From Bacteroidia bacterium (GTDB taxonomy: Bacteria > Bacteroidota > Bacteroidia > Cytophagales > JAAEPT01): DNA of 64,000 nucleotides. Location of the stretch: positions 62,001-126,000 of the forward strand of contig JAUIJC010000005.1 of assembly GCA_030431525.1 (NCBI GenBank), read 5' to 3'. The notes beneath the pieces were generated by a model. It did no database searches and had not been told where the DNA came from. It worked only from the letters and a program-made list of their open reading frames with translations. A program made the translations under genes and the position numbers. Positions 8,527 to 60,948 of this stretch are shown here, in pieces; position 1 is the stretch's first letter; each line of letters starts with the position of its first letter.

Positions 8527-8943
8527 TTATTTAAACCCATCCTTGTCCAGAATATCATCCCCAGCATCGTGATAGCCAAGTGAAGGGTTGATAGGGTCTG
8601 GTCCGTATTCGTTTGCTCCTTCATCCCCCCGAAGAATAAAGAGCACCAACAGCCAGATGGAACCAATAATTGGAATCAGAGAAAGTAATAGCCACCAAGC
8701 ACTTTTTCCGATATCATGAAGTCTTCTTGCACCCACTGCCAAGCTGGGAAGAAAGACCGCAAAACTGTAAATGGAGCGGAGCAAGCCACCTTCTTCAGGT
8801 TCTGTTTTAAAGACCATCACATCAATCGTACTCAGTACGATGAGAATCAGGAAGTGAAACAGGGTGAACATCCAAAACTCCTTTCTTCGAGCCCTCCCCT
8901 CAAAGTTCACGTAGTTCTTGATAACATGTAGATACCAGTTCAT
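8527..8943 (-). CDS. DUF805 membrane protein, paralogue 1
   Basis: This 138-residue integral membrane protein has the DUF805 signature: an N-terminal FEGRARRKEFWMF (residues 14-26), four hydrophobic helices, and the loop AVGARRLHDIGKSAWW. The acidic C-terminal tail ends DAGDDILDKDGFK. The family is widespread and its function unknown. It is the last of three tandem paralogues on the minus strand (8.5-10.2 kb), each with the same tail pattern (GY-A-ILD-), which points to local duplication. Confidence 0.88.
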   Translation of the reverse strand: MNWYLHVIKNYVNFEGRARRKEFWMFTLFHFLILIVLSTIDVMVFKTEPEEGGLLRSIYSFAVFLPSLAVGARRLHDIGKSAWWLLLSLIPIIGSIWLLVLFILRGDEGANEYGPDPINPSLGYHDAGDDILDKDGFK

Positions 8944-9003
8944 AAGGCCACTTTTTTATAGAACTAACGAAGGGAAGTGGGGGCAATCTTGTGTTCGGGG
9001 AAT

Positions 9004-9033
9004 AAAAAAAGCCATCCCAAATTGAGATGGCTT
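9004..9033 (-). terminator. Terminator of DUF805 paralogue 2
   Basis: On the minus strand, stem AAGCCATCTC against GGGATGGCTT is followed by a T run. Confidence 0.75.
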
Positions 9034-9056
9034 CGACAATCACTGTTGGTAATTGT

Positions 9057-9470
9057 TTATTTCAATACACCGTTGTCAAGGATATCACCCTCGGCATCAG
9101 CGTAGCCAGAATTGGCAGTTTTTGGGTCTGGTCCGTACTGGTTTTCACCATGTTCGCCTTCAGTGGCAAGAAGGACAATTTGCCAGATACCACCGATGAA
9201 TGGAATCAAGGCTACAAGAAGCATCCAGCCACTTTTTCCAATGTCGTGCATTCGGCGAACGCCAGCAGCCAATGAAGGAATCATAGTTCCTAAAGCATAA
9301 ATAGCAGTGAAAGGACCAGGAATTTCCATGGAAGCCAAAATGCCGTCTACGACCATACAGCCGACCATGAAAATCATGTTGAAAAGGTAGAACATCCAGT
9401 ACTCCTGTCTGCGTGCTCTGCCATTGAAGTTAGCGTAGTTTTCCTTGATAACTCGTAGATACAATTCCAT
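9057..9470 (-). CDS. DUF805 membrane protein, paralogue 2
   Basis: The 137-residue protein has the motif FNGRARRQEYWMF (residues 15-27), four hydrophobic segments, the loop AAGVRRMHDIGKSGWM and the tail GYADAEGDILDNGVLK. It is closely similar in layout to the genes at 8527 and 9771. It has its own terminator, so it may be transcribed separately from paralogue 1. Two perfect palindromes lie 90-135 nt upstream of its start and could be operator sites. Confidence 0.88.
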   Translation of the reverse strand: MELYLRVIKENYANFNGRARRQEYWMFYLFNMIFMVGCMVVDGILASMEIPGPFTAIYALGTMIPSLAAGVRRMHDIGKSGWMLLVALIPFIGGIWQIVLLATEGEHGENQYGPDPKTANSGYADAEGDILDNGVLK

Positions 9471-9563
9471 AAGGATGAAGTTTGATTGATTCCCTACTCA
9501 TAAGGCTTTTCGGTTCCGCCCCGTTTTTTAAAAAGTGATGGCTGGACTTCACTCAAAAATGGA

Positions 9564-9602
9564 TTACCAAATGTTTTGGTAAAAATACATTTAGACGTCT
9601 AA
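9564..9602. promoter_or_regulatory. Two perfect palindromes upstream of a DUF805 gene
   Basis: TTACCAAA-N3-TTTGGTAA (9564-9582) and TTAGACGTCTAA (9591-9602) lie 8 nt apart in a 300-bp spacer. Short symmetrical sites like these are typical of dimeric regulator binding sites. The rest of the spacer 9471-9770 holds a hairpin at 9721-9753 and nothing else I can name. Confidence 0.35.
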
Positions 9603-9770
9603 GATATTGATTTGCTTAGGTTTGGGCAAGAAATGTATTTATAGCTCATATTTTCCTCACAAAGGAAACCCTTCCATTTTTCCTTTGGTTCAACGCTGAG
9701 TTAATTATTTGTGTACAAATGAACGAGGCCACCTTTTTGGGATGGCCTCGTTCATTTTCGTGCTTATTAT

Positions 9771-10159
9771 TTAAGCCAGAAGGCTATTATCAAGGATTCC
9801 GTCTTCCGCATTCGCATATCCTGTGGATTTTCCTTTGGGGTCAATTCCATAATAGTTTTCCCCAGCTTGTCCATCAGTAGCCATTAGTACGATGAACCAG
9901 ATTGGGCCAGCAATTGGAATAAAAGGAATTAAGAGGTACCAAGCGCTTTTTCCAAGGTCATGAAGGCGACGAGCCCCTACAGCCATGCCAGGTAAAAAAG
10001 TGCCCCAAGCAAAGACGGTTCGAAGAACGCCACCTTGTAACGGGTTCACATCGAAATTGATGTAATCCAGAAGCATTAAGGTCAATGAAATTAGAGCGCT
10101 ATATAGGGTGAACATCCAGTATTCCTTTCTTCTCGCTCTGCCTTTAAAAACCAGTTCAT
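9771..10159 (-). pseudogene. DUF805 paralogue 3, N-terminus damaged by a frame-losing deletion
   Basis: From the ATG at 10115 there is an open frame of 114 codons with the DUF805 core (VGARRLHDLGKSAWY) and the paralogue tail GYANAEDGILDNSLLA. The essential N-terminal motif FKGRARRKEYW is also encoded, but upstream of that ATG and in a frame that meets a stop codon (TAA) 20 codons upstream of the ATG with no ATG, GTG or TTG. A paralogue-like start, Met-Asn-Trp (ATG at 10159), sits only 11 nt before the Phe codon of that motif and in another frame, as if about 34 nt had been deleted. Most likely a decaying copy; expression from the internal ATG would lack half of the first helix. Confidence 0.65.
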
Positions 10160-10225: not shown

Positions 10226-13200
10226 TTATCGCATTGTTTCCCCGGTGGGTTCAGCAAACCCCTCCATCAATTTCCGATACACCTCATCCCTTTCCAGAAT
10301 AGTTTTGTTGCCAAGACAAACCAATTGTTTCTTGGCTCTGGTCAAGGCTACATTGAGTTTTCGGTCAATGCGCTGGCCATTTTCTTCAGCCATGCCCGAC
10401 ACCAAATTTTCCAGTTGGTAGGGGCTATTCACACAAAAGGAGATAAAAATGTGGTCCCGTTGTCCGCCTTGGAAGCGTTCCACGGTGTCCACGGTTATCT
10501 TGTCGTGGTTTGGAATGCCGTCGGCTTCCAGCTGTTGGCGAATACGCGCCAGCTGGTTGCGGTACGGAGCGATGATGCCCAATGTTTTTTCGGGATCGAA
10601 GTCCTTTCCATTTTTCCCATACAGCTTAATCAAAGCCTGCGTCAATTGTGAGATGGTTTCCGCCTCGTAGGAGTTCACCTTGTCGGAGCGGTCATCAGGA
10701 TGGCGCTGAGAAGGGAGGAATGCCAAGCGTTGGTTGGCCAGTAGTTGCTCAAAGGCGTTTTCTGCATCAAACTGTTCCAAGCCCAAGGCTTCCAGTTGGT
10801 GGGGAAGTCCCACAGGCTGTAAGATGCCCTCATAGAACGATTGGTTCGGGAAGGCCATTAACTCAGGGTGCATGCGTCCTTGATAGGTTAGCGTGCCGAT
10901 GGCATGGTGCCAGCCCTTCGTTTTGCACAGTTCAAACATCCGCTCGAAGTAGGAATTTCGACGGTCCGTCAAGCCGATTTCCTTAAGGAGTGGATCGTCG
11001 ATTTTGGAGCGAACGGGATCTTGGATCACTACGGCGGGCAATTGCTTGTGGTCGCCGATAAGCACGAACTTTTTGACCTTGGGGAGAATCCCCACCAATT
11101 GGGGTTCCAACACTTGGGAGGCCTCGTCGATGATGGCCACGTCAAAGTTTTTGAGGCGGAACAGTTCTGGCTTCCCCGATAGCGAGGCCACGGTGCCCAC
11201 GAAAATGCGGTGCTCGTCAATGGTCTGGCGGATTTCCTTTCGGTTTTTGCAGGCGCCAATAACTGTTTTTAACAGGCGTGGTCGGAAAGGCTTGGCCGTG
11301 GAAAGTTCTGACCCGACACGAATAAACGGATGCTCGCCGATGGCTTCACAAATCTCGTCCACAGCGCGGTTGGTAAAGGCCAAGAGCAAGATGTTTTTGC
11401 TGGTATCCTTGTGGAGTTCCTTGGTCAGGTTTTTTAGAATGAAGGATGTCTTTCCCGCTCCCGGCGGACCCACCAAAAGGAAGTAATCTTTGGCCGAGAG
11501 GATGTTTGAAATGAGGCGGTTTTGCTCCTTTCGGCTCTCAGCATTGATGTTGTCGGCTTCTCCGATGCCGTCAAAGATGACCGGCGGATTTTGCCTTGGC
11601 TCCTTCAGCCCAAGAATGATTGCCTTCTTTTCAGGCTTTTCGCGGAGTAGCGCAAACAGGGAGCGGTACATGTCGGCAAAGCCGATTTCCATCATGTCTG
11701 GCTCCAAGCACCACTCTTGGTGACGCTCAAAATAATGTGTGTTGCGCTGGCGGTAGCGGAGCCGAATGGTTACCGCATCCCGTCCAATTTGCTCGATGCT
11801 TCCTTTGATGACCTGATGCTGGAGCACCGAATCCTCCTTGGTGGTTTTGGGATAGAGCACGACAATATCACCTTGGCGGAAATTGACGAATTTTTCCTCC
11901 TGAGGTCGTTTCAGGGTGATGCACATGCCTTCGCAATCGGCTTGGTTGTCCAAAATGGCGAGGCTGTCCAACAGCTCAAAGGCTTGTTCCTCCGCGCGGT
12001 CGTTGCGGTTCCAGAGATTGGATTGCCCACGGCTGTAGTTGCCGTCTCCAACCTTGGCGAGTTGTTGTTCCTTGGCTACAAAGGCTGTGAAGGCGAAGAA
12101 ATAAGCCTTTTCCAGGGCTGTGGCTTGCGCCAATACGTCTTGGAACAAAATGAAATCGCTGGAGACAAAGTCCAACATTTGCGCCTCGGCCACATTGAGT
12201 TTTTCTGGGGAAATACCCTCCAAGATGCGCTTGGTCTTGTCGCCGTCATCATCGGCGATGTGGTGCTCCAAGGCCACAATCCTGTTCCGAAGGTTGAGAA
12301 TTTCTTGGTCCAAGGAAGCCACGGGCGCCACATAGCGAAGGTTGGTGCCTGTGGTCTGTGCAGTTGAGTAGCAGATATAGGGGAATACCTCGTCGTGCTT
12401 TTTCCCAAAAACAGATTGGATCAACAGGCGGTAGATGGTCGCCTGTGCCTTGTGGTTGGTGTTCACCTTGCTGGCATTCGTCGAAGGAAACGGGAGTTTC
12501 CCCGATTTCAATTCCACGATGTTGAACTTATCGCCGGAGGCCTCAAAAAGGTCAAGACGTCCTTGCAGACCATAAGTTTCCGAGATGAAGGACGGCTCCA
12601 AGGTGGCGTGTTCCTTTTCCACCAAACTGTCATGCCCCTCAAATTCATTTTCGACAACCCGCCGTAGGTTGTTGTACTGCACTTGGCATTCCCGCTGAAA
12701 GTTTTTGAATGCCTCGGGGCTGTTCAGTTCTTCCAAGGTGACGTACTCAAAAGGGGCTTCTTTAAATGTCTTGGCGAAAAGTTCGTTGAATGATGGCGCC
12801 GTGCCATTGGCATTGACCAATTCATCCAAAAAGAAGTTGGCGATGTTTCCCTTATGAATGGCCGTGGTATGTGGGCGTGGCTTGAACTTGGACAACAGGA
12901 AAAAATAGGGATGCCAAATGTCTGCGCCCCGTGAAGGCTTCGTGCTCTCGGCCACTGCGGATGCATCCAACAAGTAATCCGGCTCCAAAATGAAATGCCT
13001 TGGCTGGAAAACGCCTTCCTTATCGACTTTTACATCCAGCAAATTCAGCTGTGCGCCCGTCCAAAGGGCTTTGATGGTGGGGTTATAGGCCTCGTTCAGT
13101 TTTGGAATGCCGAAACGGACACGGATCCCTTCCTCTGTCGGAGCTTCTTGGTCACGGCAGTGTAAGATGTTTTCCTCGGTGAGGATGTCAATTACCTCTA

Positions 13201-13627
13201 CTCTCAGTTTTGCATAATGTTCGCCTTTTTCCCTTCGGCTGGCCTCCAATTCCCTGTCCTTGGGTAATACGGCCTGAAGTGCCTCTGGTATTTCAAGCTT
13301 GTAGAAAAAAGCGATGGTCTCCGCCAAGATTTTCAGCGAAGCGAAATACTCTTCCTTTTCAGGAATGATGGCCTTGCGGACATTATCGCTGACGATGCGG
13401 AAATGCTGTAACTCCCACTGCTTCCTTTTTGGGAAGTTGTGCTTGTGGCTGATGAATACGATTCTGGAAAACAGGTTGGAGAACTGCACGTGCTCGCCCA
13501 CGGTCAGGTCGTGGCAGATGCGCTCCAATAGGCTCCTCAAGGCAGGGTACTTGTGGAAAATCTCGTAGGATTCCCGCTGGTGGATGTCCACCAAGGTTTC
13601 AATGAAAAGGGTGCCTTTGTTTTCCAT
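10226..13627 (-). CDS. Dna2-like fused RecB-type nuclease and SF1B helicase
   Basis: This 1133-residue protein combines two machines. The N-terminal half carries a PD-(D/E)XK RecB-type nuclease core: GLQGRLDLFE near 352, IVELKSGK near 368-375 and a downstream HKAQATIYR helix. The C-terminal half is an SF1 UPF1/Dna2-like helicase with Walker A GPPGAGKTS (about 717), IIDEASQ (about 830), IGDHKQLP, VDTVERFQGGQRDH (about 1045) and NVALTRAKKQL. Family knowledge: Dna2-type enzymes trim flaps and resect DNA ends. The Fe-S-cluster cysteines of eukaryotic Dna2 are not evident. It stands alone, so repair rather than phage defence is the simpler reading, although similar fusions occur in defence islands. 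Confidence 0.87.
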   Translation of the reverse strand: MENKGTLFIETLVDIHQRESYEIFHKYPALRSLLERICHDLTVGEHVQFSNLFSRIVFISHKHNFPKRKQWELQHFRIVSDNVRKAIIPEKEEYFASLKILAETIAFFYKLEIPEALQAVLPKDRELEASRREKGEHYAKLRVEVIDILTEENILHCRDQEAPTEEGIRVRFGIPKLNEAYNPTIKALWTGAQLNLLDVKVDKEGVFQPRHFILEPDYLLDASAVAESTKPSRGADIWHPYFFLLSKFKPRPHTTAIHKGNIANFFLDELVNANGTAPSFNELFAKTFKEAPFEYVTLEELNSPEAFKNFQRECQVQYNNLRRVVENEFEGHDSLVEKEHATLEPSFISETYGLQGRLDLFEASGDKFNIVELKSGKLPFPSTNASKVNTNHKAQATIYRLLIQSVFGKKHDEVFPYICYSTAQTTGTNLRYVAPVASLDQEILNLRNRIVALEHHIADDDGDKTKRILEGISPEKLNVAEAQMLDFVSSDFILFQDVLAQATALEKAYFFAFTAFVAKEQQLAKVGDGNYSRGQSNLWNRNDRAEEQAFELLDSLAILDNQADCEGMCITLKRPQEEKFVNFRQGDIVVLYPKTTKEDSVLQHQVIKGSIEQIGRDAVTIRLRYRQRNTHYFERHQEWCLEPDMMEIGFADMYRSLFALLREKPEKKAIILGLKEPRQNPPVIFDGIGEADNINAESRKEQNRLISNILSAKDYFLLVGPPGAGKTSFILKNLTKELHKDTSKNILLLAFTNRAVDEICEAIGEHPFIRVGSELSTAKPFRPRLLKTVIGACKNRKEIRQTIDEHRIFVGTVASLSGKPELFRLKNFDVAIIDEASQVLEPQLVGILPKVKKFVLIGDHKQLPAVVIQDPVRSKIDDPLLKEIGLTDRRNSYFERMFELCKTKGWHHAIGTLTYQGRMHPELMAFPNQSFYEGILQPVGLPHQLEALGLEQFDAENAFEQLLANQRLAFLPSQRHPDDRSDKVNSYEAETISQLTQALIKLYGKNGKDFDPEKTLGIIAPYRNQLARIRQQLEADGIPNHDKITVDTVERFQGGQRDHIFISFCVNSPYQLENLVSGMAEENGQRIDRKLNVALTRAKKQLVCLGNKTILERDEVYRKLMEGFAEPTGETMR

Positions 13628-13639
13628 TCTGGAGATGTT

Positions 13640-13728
13640 AGACCGCTTCGCTTTTAGACATTAGAGGGTAGCTCCCTGCACTCTTGGTGCTAATGTCGAA
13701 AGTCTAACCTCTTAGAGCGGAGCGGTCT
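13640..13728. repeat. Family A inverted repeat, copy 1 (89 bp)
   Basis: The ends AGACCGCTTCGCT and AGCGGAGCGGTCT are inverted to each other; inside are TTAGACATTAGAG and its rough complement. It lies between the helicase start and the terminator of the structured RNA. Related copies: 19440, 23382, 33600, 37938, 56741 and a half copy at 63141. Confidence 0.85.
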
Positions 13729-13732
13729 TATT

Positions 13733-13768
13733 AAAAAAAACCCTCCAAGAGAAAACTCCTGAAGGGTT
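13733..13768 (-). terminator. Terminator of the structured RNA
   Basis: On the minus strand the stem AACCCT/AGGGTT plus GAG/CTC is followed by eight Ts. It gives the RNA encoded at 13773-13973 a defined 3' end. In the plus direction no T run follows, so the transcript runs on the minus strand. Confidence 0.75.
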
Positions 13769-13772
13769 GAAA

Positions 13773-13973
13773 TACCTTTAGAAAAGACCGGGAAGGGGAA
13801 AAGCCTGCTTCAAACAGGATTTGACCATCAGCTTTCGTCGCGACCTTCCACTGTGAACTCTCCGAGGAGAAGCCCATCCGAAGATGGGTGCGGCCTGCTC
13901 TTGACGGACCTCCGGTCGGTATGTTGATAATGTTGACTCTCCCGCGTATGGGTCCCGGTCAGGTTTAAAGGTA
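13773..13973 (-). ncRNA. Unassigned structured RNA, about 200 nt
   Basis: The two ends pair: TACCTTTA with TAAAGGTA (13966-13973 and 13773-13780), then GACCGGGA with TCCCGGTC (13953-13960 and 13786-13793). Inside, several short hairpins can be drawn, including CCCATC-TTCG-GATGGG at the exact centre and CTCC-TC-GGAG. GC content is clearly higher than in neighbouring spacers, no convincing ORF exists, and a strong terminator follows on the minus strand. The closed multi-hairpin design suggests a housekeeping small RNA, a ribozyme or a riboswitch-like 3' element of the upstream barrel gene. I checked by eye for tmRNA, RNase P, SRP and TPP motifs and found none that fit. Confidence 0.55.
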
Positions 13974-13990
13974 CGAAAATTTTTAGGGAA

Positions 13991-14078
13991 GTGTTGGAGT
14001 GTTCCAGTGTTGGGGTGTTGAAGTTTTCTTGTGGCCTGAACAACTTCAACACTATAACACTTCCGCACTACAACACTC
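13991..14078. repeat. Family E inverted repeat (88 bp)
   Basis: Tandem GTGTTGGAGTGTT-type units on the left face inverted AACACTATAACACTT-type units on the right, around TTTTCTTGTGGCCTG. It abuts the stop codon of the PorT-like gene and separates it from the structured RNA. A single copy of this family is in the window. Confidence 0.8.
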
Positions 14079-14711
14079 TTAAAACTTGAATCCAACAACC
14101 AAAGACCAAGAATCAGTCTTAAGGTCGAAGAGGTCTTTGCTTACGCTCTCTGCATCTTCAACGGTCAAATCCTCGCGAACAATATCGAAGAGACCACGAT
14201 TATAGTTGATACCTGCGAAAAGAGAGTGTGTGCCGATTTCGAACTCAGTGCCAAGACCCAAAAGGATACCAGCATCCATCAGTGAAGTGTAGTCAGCTTT
14301 GAAGCCGTCCAATTTTTCAGCCACCTTGATGTCCAAGGTACCACCAGCTTGGAAATAGAGTTTCATCAACGGTGTGATGTTGTCCGTATAAAGCTTCAAC
14401 GCGATAGGAAGCTGGATGTACTGAAGGTTCAAGGTCTGTACCTCTTCGCTGATTTTGTAATTCGCAGCTTTGGTTACAAAGAACCCACCAGTTGTCAAGG
14501 CGAATTTCTCAGTAAGAAAAGCGTCCACCATCAAGCCCGCTTTGAAACGCAACTTTGAGCTTTCTTTGAAGATGTTAACACCTTCCTCGGCGAGATTCAA
14601 ACGAGTTACGGAAAGGTCAGGTGAGATTTGAACACCAAGTTTCAATCCTTGAGCGTGGAGGCCAGCAGTCAAAAGGAAAAGGGCCGCAATGGTAGTAAAA
14701 AGCTTTTTCAT
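14079..14711 (-). CDS. PorT-family outer membrane beta-barrel protein
   Basis: The start is placed at the ATG at 14711, because the 210-residue product then begins with a clean signal peptide (MKKLFTTIAALFLLTAGLHAQ would be cleaved after about residue 20). The rest alternates polar and hydrophobic residues with GLKLGVQISPDLS, a repeated barrel-strand pattern, and ends in an aromatic residue (VVGFKF), as outer membrane barrels do. The family (PorT-like, outer membrane protein beta-barrel) is common in Bacteroidota and often of unknown function. A -7 box TATATTTG lies on its strand at 14801-14808. Confidence 0.8.
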   Translation of the reverse strand: MKKLFTTIAALFLLTAGLHAQGLKLGVQISPDLSVTRLNLAEEGVNIFKESSKLRFKAGLMVDAFLTEKFALTTGGFFVTKAANYKISEEVQTLNLQYIQLPIALKLYTDNITPLMKLYFQAGGTLDIKVAEKLDGFKADYTSLMDAGILLGLGTEFEIGTHSLFAGINYNRGLFDIVREDLTVEDAESVSKDLFDLKTDSWSLVVGFKF

Positions 14712-14800
14712 CGGGGTTTGCGTAAATTGGTCTCGAGTATCGAGTTTAAAATTCAGTGTACGGAGGGCATGTAAGAGTTTTGCCGTTCCGCACTTCTTTA

Positions 14801-33599: not shown

Positions 33600-33681
33600 C
33601 TTTAGACCGCTACGCTTTTAGATATTAGATTTTTGCTCCCGAGTGACTGAGCTAATATCTAATGTCTAACGTCTAATGTCT
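33600..33681. repeat. Family A inverted repeat, copy 4 (82 bp)
   Basis: Starts CTTTAGACCGCTACGC and TTTTAGATATTAG, ends AATATCTAATGTCTAACG. It lies 25 nt before the Fe-S oxidoreductase ATG. Confidence 0.83.
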
Positions 33682-36376: not shown

Positions 36377-36477
36377 CAATGGGCTAACACCCATCGTTAA
36401 CATATTTCGCCCTTTCAGGGCTATGACTCGCAGCCCTGAAAGGACGAAATATGTCAGCAATGGACGCAAGTCCATTG
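36377..36477. repeat. Family F palindromic repeat, copy 1 (101 bp)
   Basis: A core palindrome (ATATTTCG...CCTTTCAGGGCT against AGCCCTGAAAGG...CGAAATAT) is flanked by two small hairpins, CAATGGGCTAACACCCATCG and CAATGGACGCAAGTCCATTG. The design resembles REP/RAYT-type palindromes. Other copies: 40599 and 46557. An ATG in it could falsely extend the next gene. Confidence 0.85.
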
Positions 36478-46556: not shown

Positions 46557-46632
46557 CAAAGGACTAAAGTCCCTTGCTAAGAAGAACCGCCCCTTCAGGG
46601 CTACCACGGTGTAGCCCTGAAGGGGCGGTTCT
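46557..46632. repeat. Family F palindromic repeat, copy 3 (76 bp)
   Basis: The small hairpin CAAAGGACTAAAGTCCCTTG is followed by the core GAACCGCCCCTTCAGGGC against GCCCTGAAGGGGCGGTTC. Compared with copy 2 the order is reversed. It lies between converging genes. Confidence 0.87.
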
Positions 46633-56740: not shown

Positions 56741-56831
56741 AGACCGCTTCGCTTTTAGACGTTAGACTTTAGCTTCCAATGTGTTGTCTTATGCGATGGG
56801 GCTAATGTCTAACATCTAATGTCTAAAGTCT
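56741..56831. repeat. Family A inverted repeat, copy 6 (91 bp)
   Basis: Starts AGACCGCTTCGCTTTTAGAC and TTAGACTTTAGC, ends GCTAATGTCTAAC and AATGTCTAAAGTCT. It lies between mazG and the tRNA-Trp promoter and shares its AGACCGCTTCGC end with copy 1. Confidence 0.85.
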
Positions 56832-60720: not shown

Positions 60721-60723
60721 CTG

Positions 60724-60797
60724 CTCCCCCTCTTGGACTTGAACCAAGGACCCTCTGATTAACAGTCAGATGCTCTAACCAACTGAGCTAAGGAGGA
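60724..60797 (-). tRNA. tRNA-Asn (GTT), copy 2
   Basis: Minus strand: acceptor TCCTCCT pairs with AGGGGGA (one G-T), anticodon stem TCTGA/TCAGA around CTGTTAA, anticodon GTT. It is identical to the copy at 60875. Confidence 0.95.
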
Positions 60798-60874
60798 AAA
60801 TTAATTGTTTGTAAAATAGTAGGAATGATATTCGCTATTTTACGGTTTAGTTGGTCCGACTGACCAGCTTGCTG

Positions 60875-60948
60875 CTCCCCCTCTTGGACTTGAACCAAGG
60901 ACCCTCTGATTAACAGTCAGATGCTCTAACCAACTGAGCTAAGGAGGA
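60875..60948 (-). tRNA. tRNA-Asn (GTT), copy 1
   Basis: Same 74-base sequence as the copy at 60724, separated from it by 77 bp and transcribed first from the promoter at 60964. Confidence 0.95.

Follow-up and report, generated by a model that had tools for sequence, protein, structure and literature searches.

A single-copy gene of a very probable divergent 6S RNA in a Bacteroidia bacterium, predicted to mimic an open promoter

Background

A structured stretch on the minus strand at 13733-13973 of 64,000 nucleotides of Bacteroidia DNA (hereafter the window) raises the question which RNA it encodes. The initial annotation, made from the sequence letters, left a lineage-specific small RNA, a 6S-type RNA and a ribozyme as options. 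The locus is very probably the single-copy gene of a divergent Bacteroidota 6S RNA, a predicted open-promoter mimic. 6S RNA slows transcription globally. Both the primary sigma factor and the promoter of Bacteroidota are unusual, so that their 6S RNAs form the natural test of how promoter imitation adapts to different promoters.

6S-Flavo RNA (Rfam RF01685) was described by Weinberg et al. 2010 (PMC2864571), its 6S identity originally being assigned by comparative genomics. The 6S RNA of Bacteroides thetaiotaomicron and its product RNAs (pRNAs) have been seen by RNA-seq (PMC7366714), and transcription of 6S RNA has been seen in Flavobacterium psychrophilum (PMC9723704).

Results

Gene context, strand and ends

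The RNA locus is intergenic, with a porin-like gene (14079-14723) on one side and a large helicase-nuclease gene (10226-13627) on the other, the latter on the same strand as the RNA and starting about 100 nt past the terminator. The minus strand of 13733-13973 is a structured RNA gene with its own terminator, as had been annotated. Including the terminator it folds at -91.1 kcal/mol (z -3.76), with 0/200 dinucleotide shuffles as good; the fold of the plus strand, for which the terminator was left out, does not stand out (z -1.54). A covariance model of 24 sequences (R3) matches at 13948-13794 with 106.7 bits, its only match in the 64-kb window. The earlier statement that the locus holds no ORF is not literally true, as two mechanical frames with TTG/GTG starts, 106 and 74 aa long, overlap it on the minus strand; the homologs, however, differ by indels and by compensatory changes of base pairs, which speaks against coding. 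The strand is settled as minus by the agreement of three sequence signals, i.e. promoter boxes, U-tracts and an asymmetry of 91 G-U versus 34 A-C cells in the 24-sequence alignment. These signals place the transcript on the predicted strand, contrary to an opposite-strand-only transcript, which had been named as a possible refutation.

13733..13964, minus strand: predicted 6S RNA transcription unit (R3 match, promoter, terminator)
13966..13973, minus strand: putative promoter -7 box TACCTTTA, TAnnTTTG at 5 of 6 positions, in register with the boxes of 47/47 homologs
13733..13769, minus strand: intrinsic terminator, 8 T and a 13-pair stem, supported by its position, not by the scan

TAnnTTTG is the -7 box of the primary sigma factor of Bacteroidota (PMC7366714; PMC9723704). 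Each of the 47 homologs matches it at 5/6 or 6/6 positions within the 70 nt that precede the core; the match is perfect in 35 of 47, and shuffles produce a perfect match in only a few per cent of cases. A -33 box (TTG at 17-23 nt) occurs in just 16/47 homologs and is not claimed. Both blocks of end pairing given in the initial annotation, TACCTTTA/TAAAGGTA and GACCGGGA/TCCCGGTC, exist, but the outer helix of TACCTTTA and TAAAGGTA is not accepted as a conserved part of the structure: TACCTTTA (13973-13966) is probably a promoter box outside the RNA, because the box holds its position in 47/47 homologs and because the 8-nt downstream complement is exclusive to this genome, being 3-5 nt in nearly all other homologs. 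With TACCTTTA as promoter box, the RNA would start just before GACCGGGA, and the spacing from the -7 box suggests a 5' end at about 13964-13960. The 3' end is either the U-run after P1 (about 13782) or the terminator (13733). This terminator, correctly recognised beforehand by its eight Ts on the minus strand (13769-13733), is a single-site pattern match in the scan for intrinsic terminators, with 1 found versus 1.4 expected by chance. The gene stands alone with a promoter of its own, a general 6S trait, as it has a TAnnTTTG-like box in 47/47 homologs and variable neighbours.

Repeats occur on both sides of the gene. Between the terminator and the helicase gene, 13640-13728 holds an inverted repeat with the arms AGACCGCTTCGCTTTTA / AGACCGCTCCGCTCTAA; the same arm is found again at two sites, 33604-33620 and 56741-56757, each accompanied by a palindrome of similar TAGACATTAG/CTAATGTCTAA type (mean by chance 0.17), and the element looks like a small dispersed repeat. 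At 13990-14077, immediately upstream of the promoter, octamer-like repeats (AGTGTTGG), arranged head to tail on the plus strand, lie opposite the same repeats on the minus strand and form a long hairpin, possibly the terminator of the porin-like gene.

Structure and covariation

13953..13960, minus strand: P1 closing stem, 5' strand GACCGGGA, pairing with 13793-13786
13786..13793, minus strand: P1 closing stem, 3' strand TCCCGGTC, then TTTT; in most homologs this strand runs directly into a U-tract
13935..13943, minus strand: P1b, 5' strand GGGAGAGTC (helix 1 of alignment A4)
13797..13805, minus strand: P1b, 3' strand GGCTTTTCC, pairing with 13943-13935
13918..13934, minus strand: central bubble, 5' strand AACATTATCAACATACC, unpaired in the consensus, 15-21 nt in 24/24 sequences
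13806..13822, minus strand: central bubble, 3' strand AAATCCTGTTTGAAGCA, 17 nt in 24/24 sequences
13914..13917, minus strand: P2 (base of the terminal arm), 5' strand GACC, pairing with GGTC 13826-13823 (helix 2 of A4)
13823..13826, minus strand: P2, 3' strand GGTC, pairing with GACC 13914..13917
13897..13900, minus strand: P3, 5' strand GAGC, four covarying pairs with 13845-13842
13842..13845, minus strand: P3, 3' strand GGTC, pairing with GAGC 13897..13900
13890..13896, minus strand: conserved AGGCC core (AGGCC invariant in 24/24) and P4 5' strand CCGC (13893-13890)
13846..13857, minus strand: conserved core TTCACAGTGGAA (ACAG and GA invariant in 24/24) and P4 3' strand GTGG (13851-13848)
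13873..13888, minus strand: hairpin A, CCCATC-TTCG-GATGGG (helix 6 of A4), two-sided changes in 5/5 pairs
13858..13872, minus strand: hairpin B, CTTCTCCTCGGAGAG (helix 7 of A4), two-sided changes in 4/6 pairs

The RNA ends are joined by a closing stem, as in 6S RNAs generally. P1 is kept in 44/47 homologs at -10 kcal/mol or better, with a duplex mean of -20.4 kcal/mol for own partners versus -10.8 for swapped partners, and in relatives it may serve, mostly with the U-run 3' of it, as the terminator. P1b covaries, with two-sided changes in 8/9 pairs and 85% of cells paired. The closing stem seen earlier, GACCGGGA/TCCCGGTC, is thus conserved, but the helix 13943-13935/13805-13797 had been missed. 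Two further general 6S traits are present under the consensus structure: a large two-strand central bubble in 24/24 sequences, its 3' strand carrying the motif (A/U)AANCYUGU with invariant C, U, G and U, and a long, branched or interrupted terminal arm, in which P2, P3, P4 and two hairpins covary. P3 is AACC/GGUU, AGCC/GGCU, GGCC/GGCC or AACA/UGUU in homologs, and has a G-G mismatch at its third pair in the window. The UUCG-capped stem reported at the centre is hairpin A (13888-13873).

Under the consensus structure (P1b, P2, P3, P4, hairpins A and B), 82% of the cells in the 24-sequence alignment are paired, a figure favoured by the choice of the structure by eye on the same alignment, and the 24 sequences are related. 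Two-sided changes occur in 27/35 pairs, and the number of pair types is large. The covariation score is 0.529 versus 0.249 +/- 0.015 in shuffles, of which 0/500 reach 0.529; when the structure is slid along the alignment the maximum is 0.265, with a large fall-off already at one-column slides. Conservation and covariation, whose lack in relatives the initial annotation had named as a refutation, are thus both present.

Distribution of homologs

A plain DNA-level search of 59 relatives matched the window alone. A covariance model of the window sequence alone (R1) matched a homolog in another family of the order with 65.9 bits (E 9e-18), which retains AAGAGCAGGCC and ACAGUGGAAGGUCG and in which helices are swapped by compensatory changes. 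R1 matches of 14-24 bits in the genomes G044 and G046 were rejected as simple hairpins or as lacking the conserved core. A two-sequence model (R2) has matches in 40/391 genomes, and R3 in 92 of 391 sampled genomes of the order and 33 of 130 genera, a lower bound given that few candidates were scored per genome under strict filters. Wherever R3 matches, there is exactly one copy per genome. Trained on this order alone, R3 also matches other families of the phylum (f26, Flavobacteriaceae-like).

When the neighbouring helicase was used as a synteny marker, it led only to proteins of 38-39% identity, with no RNA nearby. The nearest named relatives of the helicase are Saprospiraceae MAGs, which would make the order probably Saprospiraceae/Chitinophagaceae-like. 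The 6S gene is syntenic only within groups, because its neighbours differ from group to group (nadC-like, universal stress protein/flippase and serine-biosynthesis genes, often convergent or divergent). In one genus group (L051, L053, L056, L059 and others) the gene is flanked on one side by a universal-stress-protein gene in divergent orientation and on the other by a flippase gene in convergent orientation; in other genera it lies near serine-biosynthesis genes.

Matches to Rfam families

At the Rfam 15 cut-offs the RNA locus has no match, and the window sequence itself lies below the gathering cut-offs of all 6S models. Models of RNase P, tmRNA, SRP RNA and riboswitches (Rfam or ARAGORN) do not match the locus, as the first reading had supposed, and ARAGORN detects no tmRNA in the window. 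A permissive Rfam scan gave matches to His_leader, trpB and miRNA models, all dismissed as chance or terminator matches. Scanning the order with RF01685 gave nothing above the cut-off, and the general 6S model (RF00013) has no match in 59 genomes of the order, with matches in 4 control genomes. A gathering cut-off reflects curation, not biology.

The RNA of the window is linked to the Rfam 6S families by homologs of intermediate divergence. Out of 20 scanned R3 loci of the phylum, 8 are RF01685 6S-Flavo loci above the gathering score, with the same coordinates and strand. The best sub-threshold match of RF01685 in the order (G012:C77:12901-13024) is the R3 match G012:C77:12891-13030 (69 bits), and sub-threshold RF01693 matches in G049, G090 and G442 coincide with R3 matches; in G442, R3, RF01693 (sub-threshold) and RF01685 (above cut-off) all meet at one locus. 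In the homolog L038 the permissive scan gives weak co-linear matches to 6S-Flavo (26.5 bits) and Bacteroidales-1 (19.2 bits), and a family member aligns co-linearly to both Rfam consensuses, with AAUACCGAG..AAGC and CUCAAAUCYUGUC in common. R3 loci coincide with RF01685 and RF01693 loci and the alignments are co-linear, which makes the RNA a homolog, in sequence and in structure, of the 6S RNAs of Bacteroidota.

Other parts of the window gave matches of their own. Acido-Lenti-1 RNA (RF01687), a family described from Acidobacteria and Lentisphaerae, matches at 36432-36477 and 46557-46602 with 40.7 and 39.6 bits, just over the cut-off of 37; each match is adjacent to or part of a hairpin of the GCCCTGAAAGG type, and the two may represent a dispersed hairpin repeat. 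Three DUF805 genes are arranged in tandem on the minus strand (8527-10115), and just one of them is preceded by a DUF805 RNA that scores above cut-off (9487-9557). Two tandem tRNA-Asn (GTT) genes of identical sequence lie at 60723-60948, spaced by about 76 bases.

Discussion

Proposed mode of action

The analysis shows the gene, its strand, its structure and its homology to 6S-Flavo; from 6S RNAs elsewhere we infer RNA polymerase binding, the polarity of the bubble and a pRNA. The gene is read on the minus strand from a TAnnTTTG-type promoter. In the folded RNA, the closing stem (P1, P1b) is followed by a central bubble with two strands of about 17 nt each, and this by the long terminal arm (P2-P4) with its two hairpins. 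By imitating an open promoter, such a 6S RNA would occupy RNA polymerase with the primary sigma factor as cells slow; its release would come about when polymerase copies a short pRNA from the 5' bubble strand, here predicted as a plus-strand product from about 13932 upward, GTTGACTCTCCC... E. coli 6S RNA uses its 5' bubble strand as template for the pRNA; by analogy, the 3' bubble strand here, (A/U)AANCYUGU, would take the place of the non-template -7 strand (TAnnTTTG). Four or five of the six positions of TAnnTTTG are matched by this strand in 16/24 sequences, but just 3 of 6 in the window's own bubble AAAUCCUG; the resemblance to a -7 box is suggestive.

Alternative readings

Points against the 6S reading are that RF00013 has no match in 59 genomes of the order, that no Rfam 6S model reaches its cut-off at the locus, and that sequence conservation is strongest not in the bubble alone but also in the distal arm (AGGCC...ACAGNGGAA). 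Bacteroidota 6S RNA might have gained a second functional site, a two-hairpin junction of the terminal arm that binds a dedicated protein or ligand, flanked by the invariant AGGCC and ACAG..GA, which would make the RNA more than a promoter decoy; we regard both the site and this wider role as unlikely. It is improbable that the RNA, though 6S by descent, has become a trans-acting structured RNA with a changed main role, e.g. protein or ligand binding via the conserved distal arm: the invariance of AGGCC and ACAG..GA round the two-hairpin junction exceeds what 6S arms need, yet almost all homologs retain both the bubble and the closing stem, the C-Y-UGU motif of the bubble hardly varies, and the 6S RNA of Bacteroides still yields pRNAs (PMC7366714).

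The RNA could instead be a cis-regulatory leader, a riboswitch or attenuator, for the helicase-nuclease gene that lies downstream on the same strand and starts about 100 nt past the terminator; this reading is already disfavoured by the comparison of neighbours and very improbable, given that homologs adjoin unrelated genes, often convergent or divergent, and that their own P1 plus U-tract ends the RNA. Least credible is a ribozyme or an unrelated lineage-specific sRNA, to which a missing Rfam match at gathering score would correspond: the RNA is homologous to the RF01685/RF01693 loci and occurs in 33 genera of the order as well as in additional families of the phylum. Among the three options of the initial annotation, it is thus the 6S-type RNA that gains support; a ribozyme does not, nor does a lineage-specific RNA, with homologs across the order and in other families.

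Comparison with known 6S RNAs

The 6S assignment in this order and the evidence uniting 6S-Flavo and Bacteroidales-1 are new. Rfam 15 lacks the order-wide family: it misses 6S RNA throughout this order, which is large and environmental, and it lists 6S-Flavo and Bacteroidales-1 separately. The covariance model annotates 6S RNA in at least 33 genera of the order. A literature search did not find '6S RNA' and 'Chitinophaga' together, and an earlier manual annotation of some relatives is possible in Wehner et al. 2014, reportedly a survey of 6S dissemination, which PMC7366714 cites.

Closest to the RNA of this order is 6S-Flavo, whose RF01685 loci coincide with R3 loci on the same strand and with the same order of parts; common to both are the AACUCAAC bubble entry, the GGGUGA arm base, the arm core and the ACUUGU bubble strand. 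The 6S-Flavo model has 108 positions, whereas the RNA of the order has a longer arm with two hairpins and a core of about 155-175 nt, and members score 26.5-33 bits against the 6S-Flavo cut-off of 85. Bacteroidales-1 (RF01693), labelled '6S-Bacteroidales RNA suggested' in Rfam, has weak co-linear matches at the same loci and shares AAUACCGAG..AAGC, GGCC..CA and CUCAAAUCYUGUC; its model gives 19-31 bits on members of the order versus a 60-bit cut-off, and no match in the genome of the window. The order alignment supplies joining intermediates and is evidence that 6S-Flavo and Bacteroidales-1 are one family. The general 6S RNA (RF00013) of E. coli and B. subtilis has the same plan of closing stem, bubble and terminal arm.
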